Positions 2,810 through 20,083 of a stretch of DNA of 20,150 nucleotides are shown here, one piece after another. Numbering within the stretch: position 1 is the stretch's first letter; every line of letters begins with the position of its first letter. Location of the stretch: the IMG/VR virus record IMGVR_UViG_3300035698_022841, positions 1 to 20,150 of that record. One strand, given 5' to 3'. A program made the translations under genes and the position numbers. Below the pieces are notes generated by a model. It had not been told where the DNA came from, made no database searches, and worked only from the letters and a program-made list of their open reading frames with translations. Source of the DNA: a virus.

Positions 2810-3187
2810 TTACATCAACCTTGTTGTTTTTCCAGTTTTTGGATCCCAATTAAGAGCAATAGTCTTTTTTGTTGGCGATAAGCCTTGACGGGAGTACCAT
2901 TTGTTATTATATTTATCTGCTGATTTTCTCTTACTTCTACCATACAACCCCAATCCAAGACCAGCAATTGCTCCAATAGCTTTTGCTTTTATTGACTTTA
3001 ATCCATGTATGGATGCAGCGGCAACTCCAGCACCACCACCTATCCACTTTGCACCAGAGTTCTTTCTTTTGGCCACTTCTTTACGCATAGAAAGCCAGTT
3101 CTTGGGTGGATCATCGTTCTTTTGTTCAGAAATTTTCTCTAATCCCTTTTTGAATCCCAATTTGAAAGCTAACTCTATGTCATTCAT
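2810..3187 (-). CDS. Tagged small basic protein with glycine-rich hydrophobic segment
   Basis: A 125-aa protein starting MNDIELAFKLGFKKGLEK, a clear copy of the N-terminal tag. After a charged linker, residues about 50-82 form a glycine/alanine-rich apolar stretch (GGGAGVAAAS, then AIGAIAGLGLGLYG) that could insert in a membrane. A basic tail (GRSKRK, SPTKKT) follows. The start has AAAGGA upstream, and the stop abuts the TerL start. The first 43 nt match the start of the 285-aa gene at 38 positions, so the 5' ends have a recent common origin. A small ejected or membrane-active internal protein would fit, by inference. No family recognised. Confidence 0.8.
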   Translation of the reverse strand: MNDIELAFKLGFKKGLEKISEQKNDDPPKNWLSMRKEVAKRKNSGAKWIGGGAGVAAASIHGLKSIKAKAIGAIAGLGLGLYGRSKRKSADKYNNKWYSRQGLSPTKKTIALNWDPKTGKTTRLM

Positions 3188-3214
3188 TTAGCCATCCTTT
3201 CTTATTAAAGTTTT

Positions 3215-3958
3215 TTATTTAATAAATTTCATGGCCTTGATCAAGTGCGAAAGTGCCTTGGCAAGCTCCTTATCTACTGGCTTTAGTTTTTTTAGGTAAT
3301 TCATGAATCCTAAGTTGAAGGCTGATTTCTTTTCTAATGGTATTTTATAGTCGAGCATACCAACACCAAAAAGTCCTCCATGGTTCTTAAGAAATTCTGT
3401 TGGATAATCTCCAGGCTTTGCATTGATACCTAATTTTGGTCCGTCATTAGACATAAGCCATATCCTATACTTTAGGTTTGTATGGAGTTTGTCTACCATC
3501 GAATCCCACTCAACACCTTCCATCTTTGGCCATATATATCTTCCCTCATCATCAGCCATGAACTCCATATTGGATATTCCCATTTCTTCTGCTGATGCAC
3601 GCCATGCCTTCTGTACTGCTTTGCCTATTCCTTTGCTTCTGTACTTCTTTTTTAAGTATAGCATGTCTAGATTTAGATCAAATTTATCCCTAAATATTCT
3701 CTTTTGTATCGACGAATCAGCCGTACCTGGAACATGCTCATTGAGATCTTCTATCACATTCTCTCCGTCTTTAGATATTAAGCTTATTTTAGAGTTAGGA
3801 GAAAAGAATTTGTTGTCTAAAAAATGGTATATTCCTATATGTGGATTATCTTTGAGTAAAGGGTGTATATTTTTAAAATGCTTCTTCAGGACCCTCTTGA
3901 AGACTTTACCACGACCTTCATTGGAGTGATCCTTTAATATGTTCGATTCACTATTCAT
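3215..3958 (-). CDS. GNAT-family N-acetyltransferase with internal FxLGF tag
   Basis: 247 aa. Residues about 92-150 carry the GNAT acetyl-CoA site: a beta strand (LDMLYLKKKYRSKGIGKA) with the R107-x-x-G110-x-G112 pyrophosphate-binding motif, then a helix, a strand (MEFMADDEGR) and the GRYIWPKMEG patch typical of distant GNAT proteins. GNAT enzymes transfer acetyl groups to amines; the substrate here is unknown. Near the C-terminus (213-224) lies AFNLGFMNYLKK, the tag that other proteins carry at the N-terminus, followed by a lysine-rich helix. The start overlaps the stop of the 113-aa gene (ATGA). The operon context suggests a virion-associated enzyme, perhaps ejected to modify host protein, but that is inference. 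Confidence 0.75.
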   Translation of the reverse strand: MNSESNILKDHSNEGRGKVFKRVLKKHFKNIHPLLKDNPHIGIYHFLDNKFFSPNSKISLISKDGENVIEDLNEHVPGTADSSIQKRIFRDKFDLNLDMLYLKKKYRSKGIGKAVQKAWRASAEEMGISNMEFMADDEGRYIWPKMEGVEWDSMVDKLHTNLKYRIWLMSNDGPKLGINAKPGDYPTEFLKNHGGLFGVGMLDYKIPLEKKSAFNLGFMNYLKKLKPVDKELAKALSHLIKAMKFIK

Positions 3959-10941: not shown

Positions 10942-10951
10942 TCTTATACCA
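10942..10951 (-). promoter_or_regulatory. Extended -10 promoter TGGTATAAGA (53-aa/DUF1232 unit)
   Basis: Read leftward, TGGTATAAGA, one of five identical copies, all upstream of minus-strand units. TG-G-TATAAG fits a bacterial extended -10 element; no TTGACA-like -35 is seen. The expected start near 10936 gives a leader of about 27 bases with a strong ribosome site. Confidence 0.75.
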
Positions 10952-12181: not shown

Positions 12182-13060
12182 ATGAGACTAAATAAATCAG
12201 GCTTCATGCTAGGGTTCACTAGTGGAATAGGCAAGATAGCATCCATAGATAAGTTAGCCATCAAAAAAAGAATACTCGAATTCCTAGGTAAAACCGTAGG
12301 CGGATATGCTAAGAAAAATTTACTTCCAGTACTCGGTGAAGCCGCAGGATGGACACTGGGATCAAATATATTCAAAAATTTATCTGATGGTGATGAGATT
12401 TCTCCAAGTAAGTTAAGTGATGATTTCATGAATAACGTAGCTATGTTCGGTGGATTTAAGTTGCTTGGTAGTGGACTCAGCGCTAGCGCTGGTGGAATCA
12501 GTAAGGGTCTTGGCGCGGTTGCCAAAAGACTTGGATATGTTGCTGGTAAAGTTCCATCAGCTGCAGCCCAAGCATCCAAGGCGGCAGTGAAGATGAGGGC
12601 ATCAGCTAGGAAAATGTTATCATCTCCAATGGGACGCGAGATTGCCAAACAAAAAATTAAAATGAGAAAATTATGGAATAAAGAAGGATGGACTGCCATA
12701 GGTGCTGGTGTTGGTGCTTACGCTGGATATGATCCAGATAACCCAATTTCTAGTACTATTTCAGGTGGAGTAAAAGGCGGACTGTACGGTAAGATACTCG
12801 GTGGTGCTGCAGGTAAGCGGTCAGTAAAGCCATTAGCAGAATCGTACGGAGCAAAGCCAATGAAGCTTCCAGATAAAAGTTGGCTTGGTGAAATAACTAG
12901 CCAAATAAAACCAAACATAAAGGGCGGAATCGCCATGGGTGCCTTGGGTGATGCCCTTCAGAAGAAACAAAAAAGACAACAGGACAAGCAAATAAAGCAA
13001 TATTATGAACAACTAAGAAAATCACAACAACAACAACAATCATACGGGATGAAACGTTAA
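12182..13060 (+). CDS. Tagged glycine-rich 292-aa protein, candidate ejected/internal protein
   Basis: Starts MRLNKSGFMLGFTSGIGK, a variant of the tag and the only one seen on the plus strand, with AAGGA upstream. The body alternates basic and small apolar residues (FGGFKLLGSGLSASAGG, AAAQASKAAVKMRASARK). Residues about 178-218 form a glycine-zipper-like block (AIGAGVGAYAGYDPDN, GGVKGGLYGKILGGAAG), a pattern known from membrane-inserting proteins. The C-terminus is a hydrophilic Lys/Gln tail (QQDKQIKQYYEQLRKS, then QQQQQ). The stop overlaps the next start by one base. A pore-forming or membrane-crossing ejection protein is a reasonable inference, not shown. Confidence 0.75.
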   Translation: MRLNKSGFMLGFTSGIGKIASIDKLAIKKRILEFLGKTVGGYAKKNLLPVLGEAAGWTLGSNIFKNLSDGDEISPSKLSDDFMNNVAMFGGFKLLGSGLSASAGGISKGLGAVAKRLGYVAGKVPSAAAQASKAAVKMRASARKMLSSPMGREIAKQKIKMRKLWNKEGWTAIGAGVGAYAGYDPDNPISSTISGGVKGGLYGKILGGAAGKRSVKPLAESYGAKPMKLPDKSWLGEITSQIKPNIKGGIAMGALGDALQKKQKRQQDKQIKQYYEQLRKSQQQQQSYGMKR

Positions 13061-13644
13061 TGACTCCAAAATTAATATTAGATTTCTTCAAGAGGAATCC
13101 AGAGTGGATTGAATGGGAGCCTGAGACTATTTGGGCAGAATTCAATAGAGAATTACCGTCTACCGGTGAAAGTCATGAGATAAGGCGTGAGCAAAAGGAT
13201 ATGATTTTAGCTGTAAAGCTATGTCTATCTAATGATATGCCATGGGATCAATGGAACGTATTCGATAAAGTTGCGATATCTTTCAATGATAAGATAGCCA
13301 TATTTGATATAATGCAGGCCCCATCCTTAGGCGAGATATCATTTGCTGTAGAAATGATGAAGGATATACGCGCCAGTGAATTCTCTGAAGAAATAAGATC
13401 ATATGTAGCCGCAGTAGCAAAGGATGAAGGTTTTTTGGTTATGCCAGACAATCTTCAATTTTGCCAAGAGAGACTTAATTATCTAAACAGGAAATTCGTT
13501 AGAGAGACAGCCGAAGTTAAGTTAGCGTGGATGTTAGCAAAGATAACTGGTAATATTAAGTCTGGCTCTGATGATGATATGGTTACAGTCCAGTGTACCA
13601 AATTAATGGCGGTGGATAAATATGTCAAATCTAAAAAAGATTAA
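13060..13644 (+). CDS. Unknown 194-aa protein upstream of portal
   Basis: Starts MTPKLILDFFKRNPEWIEWEPETIW, a pattern I recall from conserved uncharacterised genes near the portal of large metagenomic phages. It is all-helical and acidic, with FAVEMMKDIRASEFSEEIRSYVAAVAKDEG in the centre. It overlaps the upstream stop by one base and the next gene by 23 bases, so it is tightly coupled. No tag or enzymatic motif. A head or neck assembly role is guessed only from position. Confidence 0.75.
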   Translation: MTPKLILDFFKRNPEWIEWEPETIWAEFNRELPSTGESHEIRREQKDMILAVKLCLSNDMPWDQWNVFDKVAISFNDKIAIFDIMQAPSLGEISFAVEMMKDIRASEFSEEIRSYVAAVAKDEGFLVMPDNLQFCQERLNYLNRKFVRETAEVKLAWMLAKITGNIKSGSDDDMVTVQCTKLMAVDKYVKSKKD

Positions 13645-15862: not shown

Positions 15863-16096
15863 ATGGGCAATAAGCCAATATTGAAAGATTATAAAAGCAG
15901 GATAAAGATTTTTTGCTTAAATGATATAGATGATGCAGAAGAATTTTCAAACATATGTGAGGATCCAGCATGTGAATGGGTTAAATTATCTGACAACTGG
16001 GATCAGGCTGGTTTTTATAGAGTAGTCATCAAAGTAATGACAGAAGAAAAACTACAAAAAGAAGATATAGTGATAGAGGAAGAACGTGTCGATTAA
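15863..16096 (+). CDS. Small acidic 77-aa protein after portal
   Basis: ATG with AGGGAG 6 bases upstream, 10 bases after the portal stop. MGNKPILKDYKSRIKIFCLND opens a compact alpha/beta protein, with FSNICEDPACEWVKLSD holding two cysteines and a very acidic end (DIVIEEERVD). The last 11 bases overlap the GTG start of the next gene. No known motif. Function unknown. Confidence 0.72.
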   Translation: MGNKPILKDYKSRIKIFCLNDIDDAEEFSNICEDPACEWVKLSDNWDQAGFYRVVIKVMTEEKLQKEDIVIEEERVD

Positions 16097-17012
16097 TCTT
16101 ACGGCTTCGGAACTGGTTCTTGTTGATGGTCTTATAGATGATACAACTGGAACAATTACTGATGAGATAGTTGATCTTGAAAATGCCATTATAGCAATCA
16201 CAGAAGATCAAGCAGAGTCTCTGACATATTCTAACATCTACTTTAAGTTTTATGATTATTGGACTTCATTGACTAGTGATAGTGAAACTGAAAAGAAATG
16301 GATGATGGGGGATTATGTTGGTGCACCAGTAACTAAGGCGCAAATAGACTTGACAGCTGACGGCGAGAATAATCAGTTGTACCCAATAACTACATCGTCA
16401 TGGGGTCACTTGTATCCAAAAAGAGTTAATGCATTGTATGGGACTAGTTCTACAGGATACGGTGATGTGGGCGGGATACCATATGTATACGGTCCATATG
16501 AATATGGTCAGATATTAACAGAAGAAGCTAATCAAATTGGGGCTTCACCAGTTCCAGAGGCTAGAGCGGCTGCACAAGGAGCCCAAAGAACGGCCCTTCA
16601 ATCATACGTAATTCCGTCGATAACTAGCCTAATATCAGGGCTCCGGGAAGAGTCGTCTAGATATGATTTTTTGGACGCAATAATAGTACAGTGTCAGACG
16701 GCCTTAACTAGGGCAAATACTGCTCTTTCTAATGTCATAACAGAGTTAGCCGGATACCCCGCGATATCATCAGGTAGAGCGTCCTACTTATCCTCAAGGA
16801 AGTCTCAGATACTATCTAGAAGATCTCAGATAGCATCCAGTATGTTAGTGGTTTATTCTAGGAGATATTATTTTATAGATTACCTAGTTAACCAACAGTA
16901 TGGCGTGTATGGAGATTATATTGGTGCTGAGGATAATATATACTACACCACAAATAATAAACTATCTCTTGAAAACCAAAAAGCAGAACTACTGTTATAT
17001 GTAGGTGGATAA
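16086..17012 (+). CDS. Unknown 308-aa phage structural-type protein (GTG start)
   Basis: The start is GTG at 16086, preceded by GAGGAAGA inside the previous gene. The N-terminal helical part (residues 1-75) is acidic. A Gly/Tyr-rich middle (LYGTSSTGYGDVGGIPYVYG) and long Ser/Ala/Leu helices with heptad character (about 165-255) follow. No Cys-based motif, tag or membrane segment. The composition (many Tyr, Ser, Thr; coiled helices) fits a tail, neck or fibre protein. No homologue recognised. Confidence 0.75.
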   Translation: MSINLTASELVLVDGLIDDTTGTITDEIVDLENAIIAITEDQAESLTYSNIYFKFYDYWTSLTSDSETEKKWMMGDYVGAPVTKAQIDLTADGENNQLYPITTSSWGHLYPKRVNALYGTSSTGYGDVGGIPYVYGPYEYGQILTEEANQIGASPVPEARAAAQGAQRTALQSYVIPSITSLISGLREESSRYDFLDAIIVQCQTALTRANTALSNVITELAGYPAISSGRASYLSSRKSQILSRRSQIASSMLVVYSRRYYFIDYLVNQQYGVYGDYIGAEDNIYYTTNNKLSLENQKAELLLYVGG

Positions 17013-17687: not shown

Positions 17688-17697
17688 TCTTATACCA
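17688..17697 (-). promoter_or_regulatory. Extended -10 promoter TGGTATAAGA (67-aa/32-aa unit)
   Basis: Exact TGGTATAAGA read leftward; the predicted start near 17682 gives a leader of about 14 bases ending in GGGAGGATAT. No -35 box. Unlike the cassettes before cca and before the 45-aa gene, no terminator sits directly behind it. Confidence 0.75.
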
Positions 17698-17726
17698 AAT
17701 TTTTGTAACGAATACCACCATCTTTT

Positions 17727-17735
17727 TGTTACAAT
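17727..17735 (+). promoter_or_regulatory. Possible extended -10 (TGTTACAAT) for the plus-strand small ORF
   Basis: TG-T-TACAAT on the plus strand. If used, transcription would start about 7 bases on, at 17742, which is the A of the ORF's ATG, so the mRNA would be leaderless. No -35 is seen. Two similar TTTTTGTWAC words flank the region (about 17700 and 17723), possible operator halves. Confidence 0.3.
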
Positions 17736-17741
17736 GTAAAT

Positions 17742-17924
17742 ATGGTAAAATATTCCGTGTTAATGCACGAAGAAAAAATAGGTACTAAAAAAATAATATC
17801 GAAGTTAAAGTTAAAGGAATGCTGTAGGGAACTTGAGAAAACAGCATCCCTTAGTAGTGAACACACTTGTTCATGCGGCAACCAGTGCTTCATCGTTTCA
17901 GATGAAGACACCGTTACCGATTAG
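17742..17924 (+). CDS. Possible 60-aa cysteine-rich protein on the opposite strand
   Basis: An ORF in a gap otherwise empty of minus-strand genes. It begins MVKYSVLMHEEKIGTKK, has no ribosome site, and contains C27, C28 and then C43-x-C45-x3-C49 (HTCSCGNQCF), which may bind metal. The codons resemble neighbouring genes. Its last four bases overlap the stop of the convergent 45-aa gene. A perfect 7-bp inverted repeat (17888-17907) lies near its end. It could also be a chance ORF; the lack of a Shine-Dalgarno site is the main doubt. Confidence 0.4.
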   Translation: MVKYSVLMHEEKIGTKKIISKLKLKECCRELEKTASLSSEHTCSCGNQCFIVSDEDTVTD

Positions 17925-18058
17925 GGCTTCACTACTTTCTTGATTACTTCTTTGGCAATCTTTGTTGCCTTTGGAAGTATCTCCTTGGTGATTATTTCAA
18001 CCAATCCAGGTCTAGAAGATCCCGCTTTAAAAATCTTGGCGGCTTCTTTTGCACACAT
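17921..18058 (-). CDS. Small basic helical protein, 45 aa
   Basis: ATG at 18058 with TGGGAGG spaced 5 bases upstream, and a TGGTATAAGA promoter 23 bases ahead. The sequence runs MCAKEAAKIFKAGSSRPG, then an amphipathic lysine-rich helix (LVEIITKEILPKATKIAKEV, then IKKVVKP). No tag. The strong expression signals argue that it is real. An early host-interaction peptide is plausible but unproven. No clear terminator follows, only a T-poor hairpin at 17888-17907. Confidence 0.62.
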   Translation of the reverse strand: MCAKEAAKIFKAGSSRPGLVEIITKEILPKATKIAKEVIKKVVKP

Positions 18059-18080
18059 ACATACCTCCCATCTATTACCT

Positions 18081-18090
18081 TCTTATACCA
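18081..18090 (-). promoter_or_regulatory. Extended -10 promoter TGGTATAAGA (45-aa gene)
   Basis: Exact TGGTATAAGA read leftward, 24 bases downstream of the end of the cca terminator T-tract. The spacer begins TTTTAGCTATAAA and includes ATCC, as in the cassettes upstream of cca and of the GC-rich RNA. Confidence 0.75.
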
Positions 18091-18114
18091 TATTTACAGG
18101 ATAAATTTATAGCT

Positions 18115-18144
18115 AAAAGAAGCACCCTGGTTTCAGAGTACTTC
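18115..18144 (-). terminator. Intrinsic terminator of cca
   Basis: Leftward reading gives a 10-bp stem, GAAGTACTCT pairing with AGGGTGCTTC (two G-U pairs), a 6-base loop and TTTTAGC. About 80 bases after the cca stop. The stretch 18145-18225 is 3' untranslated and also holds a perfect 6-bp hairpin (18182-18197, GTGTTG/CAACAC). Confidence 0.8.
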
Positions 18145-18225
18145 TGCATATCCAAACACTTTATCCGTATCGCTGCATCGCGTGTTGGTATCAACACCCT
18201 AGTCTTACGCATAACGGCATTGTGT

Positions 18226-19482
18226 TTAGATATGGCTAACGTATCTTTTCTTGACTTCCTTTATAGCCAAGACCCTACGTTGGATAATATCGGATTTAAT
18301 ATCAGAGACGTCAGGGTTGGCCTTCACGGATCTGTAGGCTAATGCAGCCTCCATTATGTAGCAAGTCTTTTTGTTTACATAATCGAGATCAGATCCAGGC
18401 ATACGACCCATTTCATCGGACTCACCAATGATGCACCATGCCACCACATCGTCGGAGTAGCTGGATACCTTTAGTGCGTCGAATATCTTCCTGATCTTGC
18501 CCGGAGTAAGATCAAAAACCTTATGGAAGTGCATGTGCCACTTGGCCATAAGTTTGGACAGGCTTCTCCATCTTTTTTCTGCCTTCATCTTGTTGCACAT
18601 TTGAGTTATGTGCTCATCGCCATACGCTTCATGCTTATGGTGGGCAGGGAGGGACTTGGCGGGGGAATTTATCTTACCAACATCATGAAGCAGGGCCGCG
18701 AATAATGTTGGGACATCATCCGTTCGCTTTCTTACTTCCTCCAATACCATCATGGTGTGGTTATAGACATCGCCCTCTCCATGGTGGCCTTTTGGTTGGG
18801 GAATTCCTATCATTTTATAGATAGGCGAAAACCAGTATTCCAATGCCCCAAAATCACGGAGAGCATTAAAGTAGAGACTAGGATATTTACACGATAGGGC
18901 CTTCTTGGTTTCTTCCCTGACCCTATCAGCAGAGACCTTCTTATGTAGACCTGATGATACCATCTTTCTACATAGAGCTACGGTATCGGGTATTATCTTG
19001 AAGGAAAGTTGAGCTGCAAATCTAGCCGCCCTGAATATGCGAAGGGGATCTTCCATGAATGCATTGTCATCCAGATGCCGAATTTCTTTGGCTTGTATGT
19101 CGCTGTAGCCGTCAAACGGATCGAATAGCCCCTCATTGGAATACATGGCTATTGCGTTAATTGTAAAATCACGTCGAAAGAGATCTTCCTCGATAGTTAT
19201 GTTGGTGGTATCGAAGCTGAAATCTTCTGTCGTCACCCCGGTAGAGGTTTCCTTTCTCGGTAAGGCATAGTCTTCTCGCATGGGATCCAGAGAATGAAAG
19301 AAGACTGGGGTAGATATACTTTTACCAACTCTCTCGAATCCGAGGCCGAGCATGCAGGCTTCGGTTTTGTTGGTGACGAGCCAGTCATTGTCTTTCGGCT
19401 TTACATCCATAATGAAGTCTCTGACTGCTCCACCAACAAGTAACTTATCGAGGGAGTTTTTTATTTCATTCCAAGTGGACAT
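18226..19482 (-). CDS. cca: CCA tRNA nucleotidyltransferase with HD domain
   Basis: 418 aa, about the length of the E. coli enzyme. It adds or repairs the 3' CCA of tRNAs using CTP and ATP. Nucleotidyltransferase motifs: LLVGGAVRD (14-22), the metal-binding DND (31-33), LFRRDFTINAIAM (about 101-113), then DPLRIFRAARFAA (about 144-156), the class II poly(A) polymerase/CCA signature. The C-terminal half holds an HD phosphohydrolase domain (HTMMVLEEV, then FAALLHDVGK), as in proteobacterial Cca, which adds phosphatase and phosphodiesterase activity. The ATG has AGAGAGG upstream and its own TGGTATAAGA promoter 34 bases ahead, with an intrinsic terminator behind, so it is an independent unit. Phages carry such enzymes to keep host or phage tRNAs functional. 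No tRNA gene is seen here. Confidence 0.95.
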   Translation of the reverse strand: MSTWNEIKNSLDKLLVGGAVRDFIMDVKPKDNDWLVTNKTEACMLGLGFERVGKSISTPVFFHSLDPMREDYALPRKETSTGVTTEDFSFDTTNITIEEDLFRRDFTINAIAMYSNEGLFDPFDGYSDIQAKEIRHLDDNAFMEDPLRIFRAARFAAQLSFKIIPDTVALCRKMVSSGLHKKVSADRVREETKKALSCKYPSLYFNALRDFGALEYWFSPIYKMIGIPQPKGHHGEGDVYNHTMMVLEEVRKRTDDVPTLFAALLHDVGKINSPAKSLPAHHKHEAYGDEHITQMCNKMKAEKRWRSLSKLMAKWHMHFHKVFDLTPGKIRKIFDALKVSSYSDDVVAWCIIGESDEMGRMPGSDLDYVNKKTCYIMEAALAYRSVKANPDVSDIKSDIIQRRVLAIKEVKKRYVSHI

Positions 19483-19515
19483 TGACGCCTCTCTATTAAA
19501 TGATTGATACTATGT

Positions 19516-19525
19516 TCTTATACCA
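19516..19525 (-). promoter_or_regulatory. Extended -10 promoter TGGTATAAGA (cca)
   Basis: Exact TGGTATAAGA read leftward, about 25 bases downstream of the T-tract of the preceding terminator (spacer starts TTTTAACATATAAA). Predicted start near 19510; leader about 27 bases ending in AGAGAGGCGTCA. Confidence 0.78.
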
Positions 19526-19550
19526 TTATTGGGATGTTTATTTTATATGT

Positions 19551-19571
19551 TAAAAGAGGGGAAAGCCCCTC
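19551..19571 (-). terminator. Intrinsic terminator of the GC-rich RNA unit
   Basis: Leftward reading: GAGGGG-CTTT-CCCCTC (6-bp stem, 4-base loop), then TTTTAACATA. It closes the hairpin-rich transcript and directly precedes the cca promoter cassette. Confidence 0.85.
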
Positions 19572-19691
19572 GACCCTTTCGGTTAGGCAGCCGCCAAGGC
19601 TGCTTTTTTCTTGTTCTTTCCTTTTTCCTTGCGGGCTGCTTTCGCAGCCCGCCTGGACTCGCGTCCCTTGGCTACTTTAGCCAAGAAGACC

Positions 19692-19736
19692 GGGGAGGGA
19701 GAGGGAATGGGAATGGGAATGGGAGAGGGAATGGGG
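19692..19736 (+). repeat. Purine G-tract repeat, potential G-quadruplex on the plus strand
   Basis: Nine runs of three or more G on the plus strand, separated by 1-3 bases (GGGAAT repeated, with GGGAGA variants). The minus-strand transcript would instead contain an unstructured C/T-rich linker of (CCCATT) units between two hairpin domains. The flanks hold GGTC/GACC words (SalI-like GTCGAC at 19736-19741). Confidence 0.75.
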
Positions 19737-19794
19737 TCGACCTCTTCGGAGTTTCGGGGGGTGGGGGGAGGCCTTTCGGCCTCCCCTGCACCCC

Positions 19795-19998
19795 CTACTC
19801 GGGGTCCTCAATGGTCGGGCTTGATGGTGGAGAATTCCACCATCCGCTGATCCTGGCGCTAGTGAGGATGGCGCACACGATGGCGCCATCTATGAGGCGG
19901 GCGCCAGCGGTTACGCTGGCTCCCACGACAAAGGTCCCGGCGGCCAAATAGGCCGCCTTCGCGAGCCGCGATGACGCGCTGAATTCTTCGAGGGTCAT
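19795..19998 (-). CDS. Doubtful 67-aa hydrophobic ORF inside the structured RNA
   Basis: ATG preceded by GGGAGGG, coding for a short apolar protein (two possible membrane helices, LAKAAYLAAGTFVVGAS and GAIVCAILTSA) with a Pro/Ser-rich end. The apparent ribosome site and start codon are themselves the arms of a perfect 7-bp hairpin, and the whole ORF is filled by six perfect stems. The leader of about 70 bases is much longer than the 14-28 bases of the other four units. A chance ORF in a structured RNA is more likely. A small holin-like membrane protein, or a dual-function RNA, remains possible. Confidence 0.22.
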   Translation of the reverse strand: MTLEEFSASSRLAKAAYLAAGTFVVGASVTAGARLIDGAIVCAILTSARISGWWNSPPSSPTIEDPE

Positions 19999-20073
19999 AA
20001 GACCCTCCCTTCTTATGATTTTACCCCAACTCCAGATAAGGAATCAGGGGCATAAGGATACATCCCTATATAA

Positions 20074-20083
20074 TCTTATACCA
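20074..20083 (-). promoter_or_regulatory. Extended -10 promoter TGGTATAAGA (GC-rich RNA)
   Basis: Exact TGGTATAAGA read leftward, 27 bases beyond the T-tract of the next upstream terminator (spacer starts TTTTTTAGCATATGAAA and includes TATCC). Predicted start near 20067, giving RNA that begins about AGGGATG. Confidence 0.78.

Follow-up and report, generated by a model that had tools for sequence, protein, structure and literature searches.

The GC-rich unit near the right end of the window (19551–20066, minus strand) carries a genuine train of perfect hairpins and, among them, an open reading frame of 67 codons that is probably translated. Our best explanation, to which we give an even chance, is that its RNA of around 516 nt is a structured mRNA for a small protein or a dual-function RNA. 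The window is the entire 20,150-bp contig of a virus, a large AT-rich tailed phage whose portal and terminase are around 25–42% related to those of the Vibrio phages D69, D181 and D148, of Salmonella phage Arash and of many uncultured contigs. The combination of such dense perfect local structure with a coding signal is rare and has no equal in 5189 GC-matched pieces of related or cca-bearing phages. If it is translated, constraints would act on this half-kilobase phage RNA at two levels, its message and its fold, and it would contain a switch at the start site and perhaps a frameshift; otherwise, it would be a phage RNA that falls into none of the families described so far.

An earlier note on this DNA had described the unit as GC-rich in an AT-rich phage; its GC content is 0.60–0.63, compared with around 0.38 for the window, and the unit is framed on the minus strand by its own signals. 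The extended −10 promoter element TGGTATAAGA (20074–20083, minus strand) has five exact copies in the window (10942–10951 and four sites at 17688–20083, the latter within a block at 17.7–20.1 kb), all on the minus strand, and no copy with one mismatch. Copies also precede cca and two small genes of the window, which bears out the claim that the unit shares its promoter with its neighbours, and the element is found again in related phage contigs. TGGTATAAGA is an extended −10 promoter of this phage group; a sigma-70 consensus scan of the window did not list it because it has no −35 box. At the other end, the same-strand terminator that had also been claimed is present as the stem GAGGGG-CTTT-CCCCTC followed by TTTTA (19551–19571), recovered by the perfect-hairpin search as well. 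Between the two lies a Shine–Dalgarno (SD) sequence, GGGAGGG (20003–20009), similar to the GGGAGG used by neighbouring small genes. Promoter, leader, SD, small gene and terminator most likely form a single self-contained transcription unit, and their succession in gene order favours the mRNA reading. These signals support a separately transcribed, highly structured RNA of approximately 515 nt, the length given in the earlier note.

Counting perfect stems with loops of 3–8 nt, we found ten hairpins with stems of at least 6 bp on the minus strand of the unit, eight of them with stems of at least 7 bp, whereas 200 dinucleotide shuffles gave a mean of 0.27 hairpins of at least 7 bp (maximum 2). 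The stems lie where the earlier note had placed its train of perfect hairpins. Other half-kilobases of the window, stretches overlapping the unit excepted, contain at most two perfect hairpins of at least 7 bp, and the highest count among 5189 GC-matched 516-nt stretches from related or cca-bearing phage loci was four. In minus-strand order, the perfect-hairpin search returned GGCGGCC-TATTT-GGCCGCC (19939–19957), GCCAGCG-TAAC-CGCTGGC (19903–19920), GATGGCGC-CATCGTGT-GCGCCATC (19867–19890), GATGGTGGA-ATTC-TCCACCATC (19823–19844), CTTGGCTA-AAG-TAGCCAAG (19667–19685), GCGGGCTGC-GAAA-GCAGCCCGC with a GNRA loop (19631–19652) and GCAGCC-TTGGC-GGCTGC (19587–19603); the sequence contains a further small GNRA hairpin, GGAC-GCGA-GTCC (19655–19666). 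The strongest hairpin, found both in the fold and in the perfect-hairpin search, has a GAAA loop and the longest stem, 16 bp (19757–19795), which is a composite interrupted twice, by 2 nt and by 1 nt; the base that closes the UAG of the 67-codon frame is also the first of this hairpin.

The predicted fold of the unit is chiefly a row of local hairpins, around 14 in all, with a minus-strand minimum free energy of −249.1 kcal/mol (z = −7.9; no shuffle was as good). Fold energy cannot tell the sense strand, because the plus strand folded alone is stabler still (−272.6 kcal/mol); the promoter, SD, terminator and GNRA loops identify the minus strand as sense. These loops are GAAA at 19777–19774 and 19643–19640 and GCGA at 19662–19659, together with another GAAA on a 2-bp stem. 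The earlier note had listed two GAAA and one GCGA, readable as GNRA on the minus strand only; all three were found, the GAAA on the 2-bp stem being additional. On the plus strand, no GNRA occurs among tetraloops on stems of at least 5 bp.

The stems are almost wholly Watson–Crick; on the minus strand, 6 of the 136 pairs are G–U. Such pairing speaks for a mutational product: imperfect inverted repeats in a GC-rich gene would have been made perfect by template-switching during replication, and the RNA structure would have no function. This process is documented for inverted repeats (PMC7202029, PMC8604942). We nevertheless consider this origin improbable. GNRA loops are present on the transcribed strand only, where they make up two of the five tetraloops on stems of at least 6 bp (around 1% by chance), with two more on shorter stems; the hairpins are concentrated in one unit, which ends exactly at promoter and terminator; and nothing alike was seen in any other GC-matched stretch of related phages.

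The 67-codon frame (19795–19998, minus strand), which begins MTLEEFSASSRLAKAAYLAAGTFVVGASVTAG, is marked by codon bias, hydrophobicity and its SD. Scored against the phage's own genes, it has a codon discrimination of 0.43 over the other two frames, where equally long pieces of phage genes score between 0.06 and 0.71, and its hydrophobic stretch (KD19 of 1.62) was reached by none of 545 ORFs from dinucleotide shuffles. In 5000 randomisations that preserve each hairpin and its pair composition, random hairpin trains matched the codon bias with p of approximately 0.007 and the hydrophobicity with p of approximately 0.007, and not one had both. As a second control, none of more than 40 ORFs in the GC-rich islands of relatives combined the two properties. 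AlphaFold2, run on the single sequence, predicted one helix for the 67-residue product (residues 3–55, pLDDT 84), which is weak support because helices are easy to predict. Together these predictions suggest that the product is most likely a tiny, mostly helical, membrane-type protein. A 70-aa ORF at 19889–19677 and the plus-strand ORFs had no or weak coding signal and no SD, and were rejected as genes.

The protein does not account for the stems. When synonymous shuffling held protein and codon usage fixed, 0.8 hairpins were left where the ORF has 4, and 0.57 where a −1 frame extension described below also has 4; the observed number was reached in none of 500 shuffles in either case. The structure, lost in this way, goes beyond what the protein explains, with template-switching as the alternative cause.

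The earlier note had read the unit as a possible large structured RNA, with the assumption that it is non-coding. The structured, separately transcribed unit that it described stood up to analysis; the absence of coding became doubtful, because hairpin trains do not produce the coding signal of the ORF by chance (joint signal in 0 of 5000). We hold it possible, though not probable, that the unit belongs to a new class of structured phage RNA with no coding role at all, its hairpin chain acting by way of C-rich and A/G-rich linkers as antisense RNA, scaffold or sponge and its ORF being accidental. Structure extends across the whole transcript, the SD and AUG are buried and more than half of the unit lies outside the ORF; moreover, GC-rich islands of relatives (z of −3.4 to −6.8) look non-coding and occupy a minus-strand block downstream of portal, at least two of them directly behind an exact copy of TGGTATAAGA. 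However, those islands lack the joint coding signal and have no sequence similarity to the unit, they are rich in 6-bp palindromes, for which the unit is not enriched, and the C-rich linker of the unit has no advantage over its shuffles in pairing with start sites.

Among described RNA families, the earlier note had proposed a possible relative of ROOL or GOLLD. At gathering thresholds, a cmscan against Rfam 15 (4227 models) found nothing, and ROOL, GOLLD, OLE, raiA and HEARO were absent even from a permissive scan of the unit (E ≤ 5), so that the proposal found no backing at either level. T-large and the other Rfam RNAs likewise gave no match, with only sub-threshold hits to unrelated families, the best of which (rliI and microRNAs) were far under their family thresholds. 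tRNA islands are often found close to ROOL and GOLLD, and these two RNAs are reported to adopt complex, pseudoknotted, cage-forming folds (PMC12286853). The unit has in common with them that it is a large structured RNA unit of a phage, but it differs in matching no covariance model, in its separate hairpins and in probably being coding. Many GOLLD members exceed 800 nt, compared with around 516 nt here, and where ROOL has a pseudoknotted fold and a multimeric cage, the predicted fold of the unit consists mainly of local hairpins. ARAGORN found no tRNA gene in the 20-kb window, of which only 84 nt lie upstream of the unit, leaving that flank out of view.

Some bacterial RNAs, such as RNAIII of Staphylococcus aureus and SgrS, have dual functions, pairing a small protein with a structured RNA. 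The unit resembles these in its length of around half a kilobase, its row of local hairpins, an ORF that is very small, and C-rich unpaired stretches able to pair with a Shine–Dalgarno sequence. It differs in that we found no sequence relation, its ORF is larger and its linker is no more specific than shuffled versions.

The leader of the unit is around 68 nt long (19999–20066) and has a hairpin of its own; it also contains a possible 10-codon mini-ORF, MPLIPYLELG, which we record as an observation only. From the −10 element to the ATG the distance is around 75 nt, compared with around 20–34 nt in the sister units, in agreement with the claim of an extra-long leader. The start codon had also been described as buried in a stem, and indeed a 7-bp hairpin, GAGGGUC-UUAU-GACCCUC (19990–20007; −13.8 kcal/mol) covers the SD and part of the AUG. 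The perfect-hairpin search also identified a competing 8-bp hairpin, UCAUAAGA-AGGGAGGG-UCUUAUGA (20018–19995), in which the SD would be exposed in the loop. Strong sequestration of the start site would suppress translation and in that respect counts against the mRNA reading, although sequestration of the SD also counts in favour of a structured mRNA.

From this anatomy, the excess of structure and the statistical coding signal, we infer how a structured mRNA or dual-function RNA of this kind might work. The RNA would encode the 67-residue, mostly helical, membrane-type protein, with around 14 local hairpins selected on top of the protein. The start-site hairpin would act as a control point, keeping translation low or delaying it until the hairpin is opened by the competing hairpin, by a ribosome on the leader or by a protein, and the hairpin chain and terminator may shield the RNA from nucleases. 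At the stop codon, the 16-bp hairpin might cause some ribosomes to slip back by one base at CCCC, adding a proline-rich, Lys/Arg-rich tail to give 138 residues in all. Counting against the mRNA reading are the lack of a homologue, the small share of the transcript spanned by the ORF (just 40%), the non-canonical CCCC, the weak first half of the extension and a position-2 GC content that is high for coding sequence.

Between the stems runs a partly unpaired C-rich linker with CCCATT repeats (19692–19743, minus strand). Among 26 start regions included in a pairing test, its best partner was the unit's own SD (−20.7 kcal/mol), on which the linker could fold back. Start sites were better partners of the linker than gene interiors were (p = 0.0006), and the same held for shuffled linkers; composition thus explains the pairing, and we rejected a sponge or anti-SD role. 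As pairing to other start sites equals that of shuffled linkers, a role for the linker in trans is unsupported. A CsrA sponge was also dropped, as GGA occurs in hairpin loops only at the SD. The plus-strand complement of the linker is a GGGAAT repeat capable of forming a G-quadruplex.

The possible −1 frame extension comprises 72 codons (19583–19801, minus strand; ...KEKGKNKKKAALAAA) that are first proline-rich and then Lys/Arg-rich. It has no start codon of its own, ends around 11 nt before the terminator stem and overlaps the 67-codon ORF by 14 nt, in GAGGACCCCGAGTA. Its position-1 minus position-2 G content is unusual (p = 0.0007), its codon discrimination is not (p = 0.10), and a clear frame signal is limited to the final 110 nt or so, the first half being weak. 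A −1 shift at CCCC (19801–19804) could join both frames. The 16-bp hairpin starts 5 nt past CCCC, within the 5–9 nt expected for the downstream hairpin of a −1 frameshift element. The site reads G GAC CCC GAG in frame 0, so that a slippery heptamer of the form X XXY YYZ is absent, and after a −1 slip re-pairing would be perfect for the CCC codon only. At bacterial sites of programmed −1 frameshifting, too, the frame changes 5 nt ahead of a hairpin of high stability, but they use the X XXY YYZ heptamer where the unit has CCCC, and here no homologue was found. We propose programmed −1 frameshifting at CCCC only tentatively.

The break between the frames is ambiguous, because an assembly error or an indel of one base would look identical. 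Alternatively, with a smaller but appreciable chance, the gene is one ORF of 138 codons whose frame was broken in the C run next to the strong hairpins, either by a recent indel or by an assembly error of one base. This alternative overlaps our best explanation, since only the origin of the frame break differs. The coding signal switches frame across the 14-nt overlap, the remainder is open up to its stop close to the terminator stem, and strong hairpins are difficult to sequence. Weighing on the other side, we noticed no other broken gene in the 20-kb contig, and the frame signal of the extension reaches no more than moderate significance.

Searches for homologues were negative throughout. 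For the unit, blastn against phages and plasmids and a PHROGs search gave nothing beyond chance, as did a search of viral contigs for an exact 22-nt hairpin, and a DNA search of 16 relative contigs yielded chance-level matches only. With tblastn we found no homologue of the 67-aa and 72-aa frames in viral contigs, of the 67-aa frame in genome contigs or of the 138-aa fusion in phage records. None of the relatives recognised by terminase, portal or cca carried a hairpin train, nor did Vibrio phage D69, scanned over its whole genome, and a portal search in genomes returned no relatives. The earlier note had suggested looking for homologous islands beside cca-like genes in related phages; none with a hairpin train was found there. 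The missing homologue and the high GC content in a phage of around 0.38 would both suit a chimeric assembly or freshly acquired foreign GC-rich DNA. We regard this as very improbable, given that the phage's own type of promoter and SD and a terminator frame the unit, that the DNA is continuous with cca and that relatives too have GC-rich islands.

These islands, in contigs L053 (with identical copies), L062, L068, L084, L183, L190, L191 and L192, measure around 0.6–1.6 kb, are GC-richer than their host phages and are mostly without plausible genes. They adjoin a glycosyltransferase-like gene and mostly lie between that gene and a radical-SAM-like gene. Four of them are on the minus strand (L053, 15920–17560; L062, 13640–14610; L068, 14230–15470; L084, 3850–4720), in a block downstream of portal and a few kilobases away from it, portal being in the same locus in these four, and fold with z of −3.4 to −6.8; the other four are on the plus strand (L183, 4940–5535; L190, 4690–5535; L191, 4680–5430; L192, 4680–5625). 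TGGTATAAGA occurs at or near the island start in L084 and L192 (exact) and in L190 (one mismatch), and the sequence AACAACACT is common to the islands of L190–L192. Most islands are around two- to threefold enriched in 6-bp palindromes (34 versus 11.6 in L191). Against Rfam they gave no relevant family match. GC-rich stretches in L055, L057 and L004 were rejected as islands because they are coding (collagen-like repeats and Gly/Ala/Thr repeats).

The phage group thus seems to own large structured RNAs, and the islands are possibly an undescribed class of large phage RNA. Like the unit, they are structured, stand out as GC-rich within AT-rich phages of that portal family and lie close to portal but on the other strand; at several of them the promoter motif is present as well. 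They differ in looking non-coding, in being mostly palindrome-rich, in their usual place between radical-SAM-like and glycosyltransferase-like genes and in sharing no sequence with the unit: blastn with a word size of 7 found only chance-level pieces. Position and promoter speak for membership of the unit, whereas sequence, style and coding signal speak against it. It is a rather unlikely, though far from negligible, prospect that the unit is a member of a new class of strongly structured, GC-rich phage RNAs, driven by promoters and situated in the minus-strand block near portal of this large uncultured phage group, a class evolving fast beyond sequence similarity, which here would have acquired a hairpin train and gained a membrane-protein gene. 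The islands make this wider-class question directly testable.

We made several further observations in the window and in related phages. Several otherwise different proteins of the window carry a motif of the type F-x-L-G-F-x-x-G, mostly N-terminal (genes at 3187, 4296, 5893 and 6747 on the minus strand and at 12182 on the plus strand), and the gene at 3958 on the minus strand has it in its C-terminal part; the motif is possibly a sorting or processing signal. Genes resembling tRNA-Sec (48 bits) occur on the plus strand of L053 (4011–4103) and L062 (5920–6012), and a collagen-like gene of L055 (about 400–1800) contains an in-frame TGA; UGA may encode an amino acid in these phages. Among related or terminase-linked phage contigs, L191 has a group I intron (3032–3269, plus strand), and L005 has a tmRNA gene (15878–16284) and an abiF-like RNA (13389–13426), both on the minus strand.
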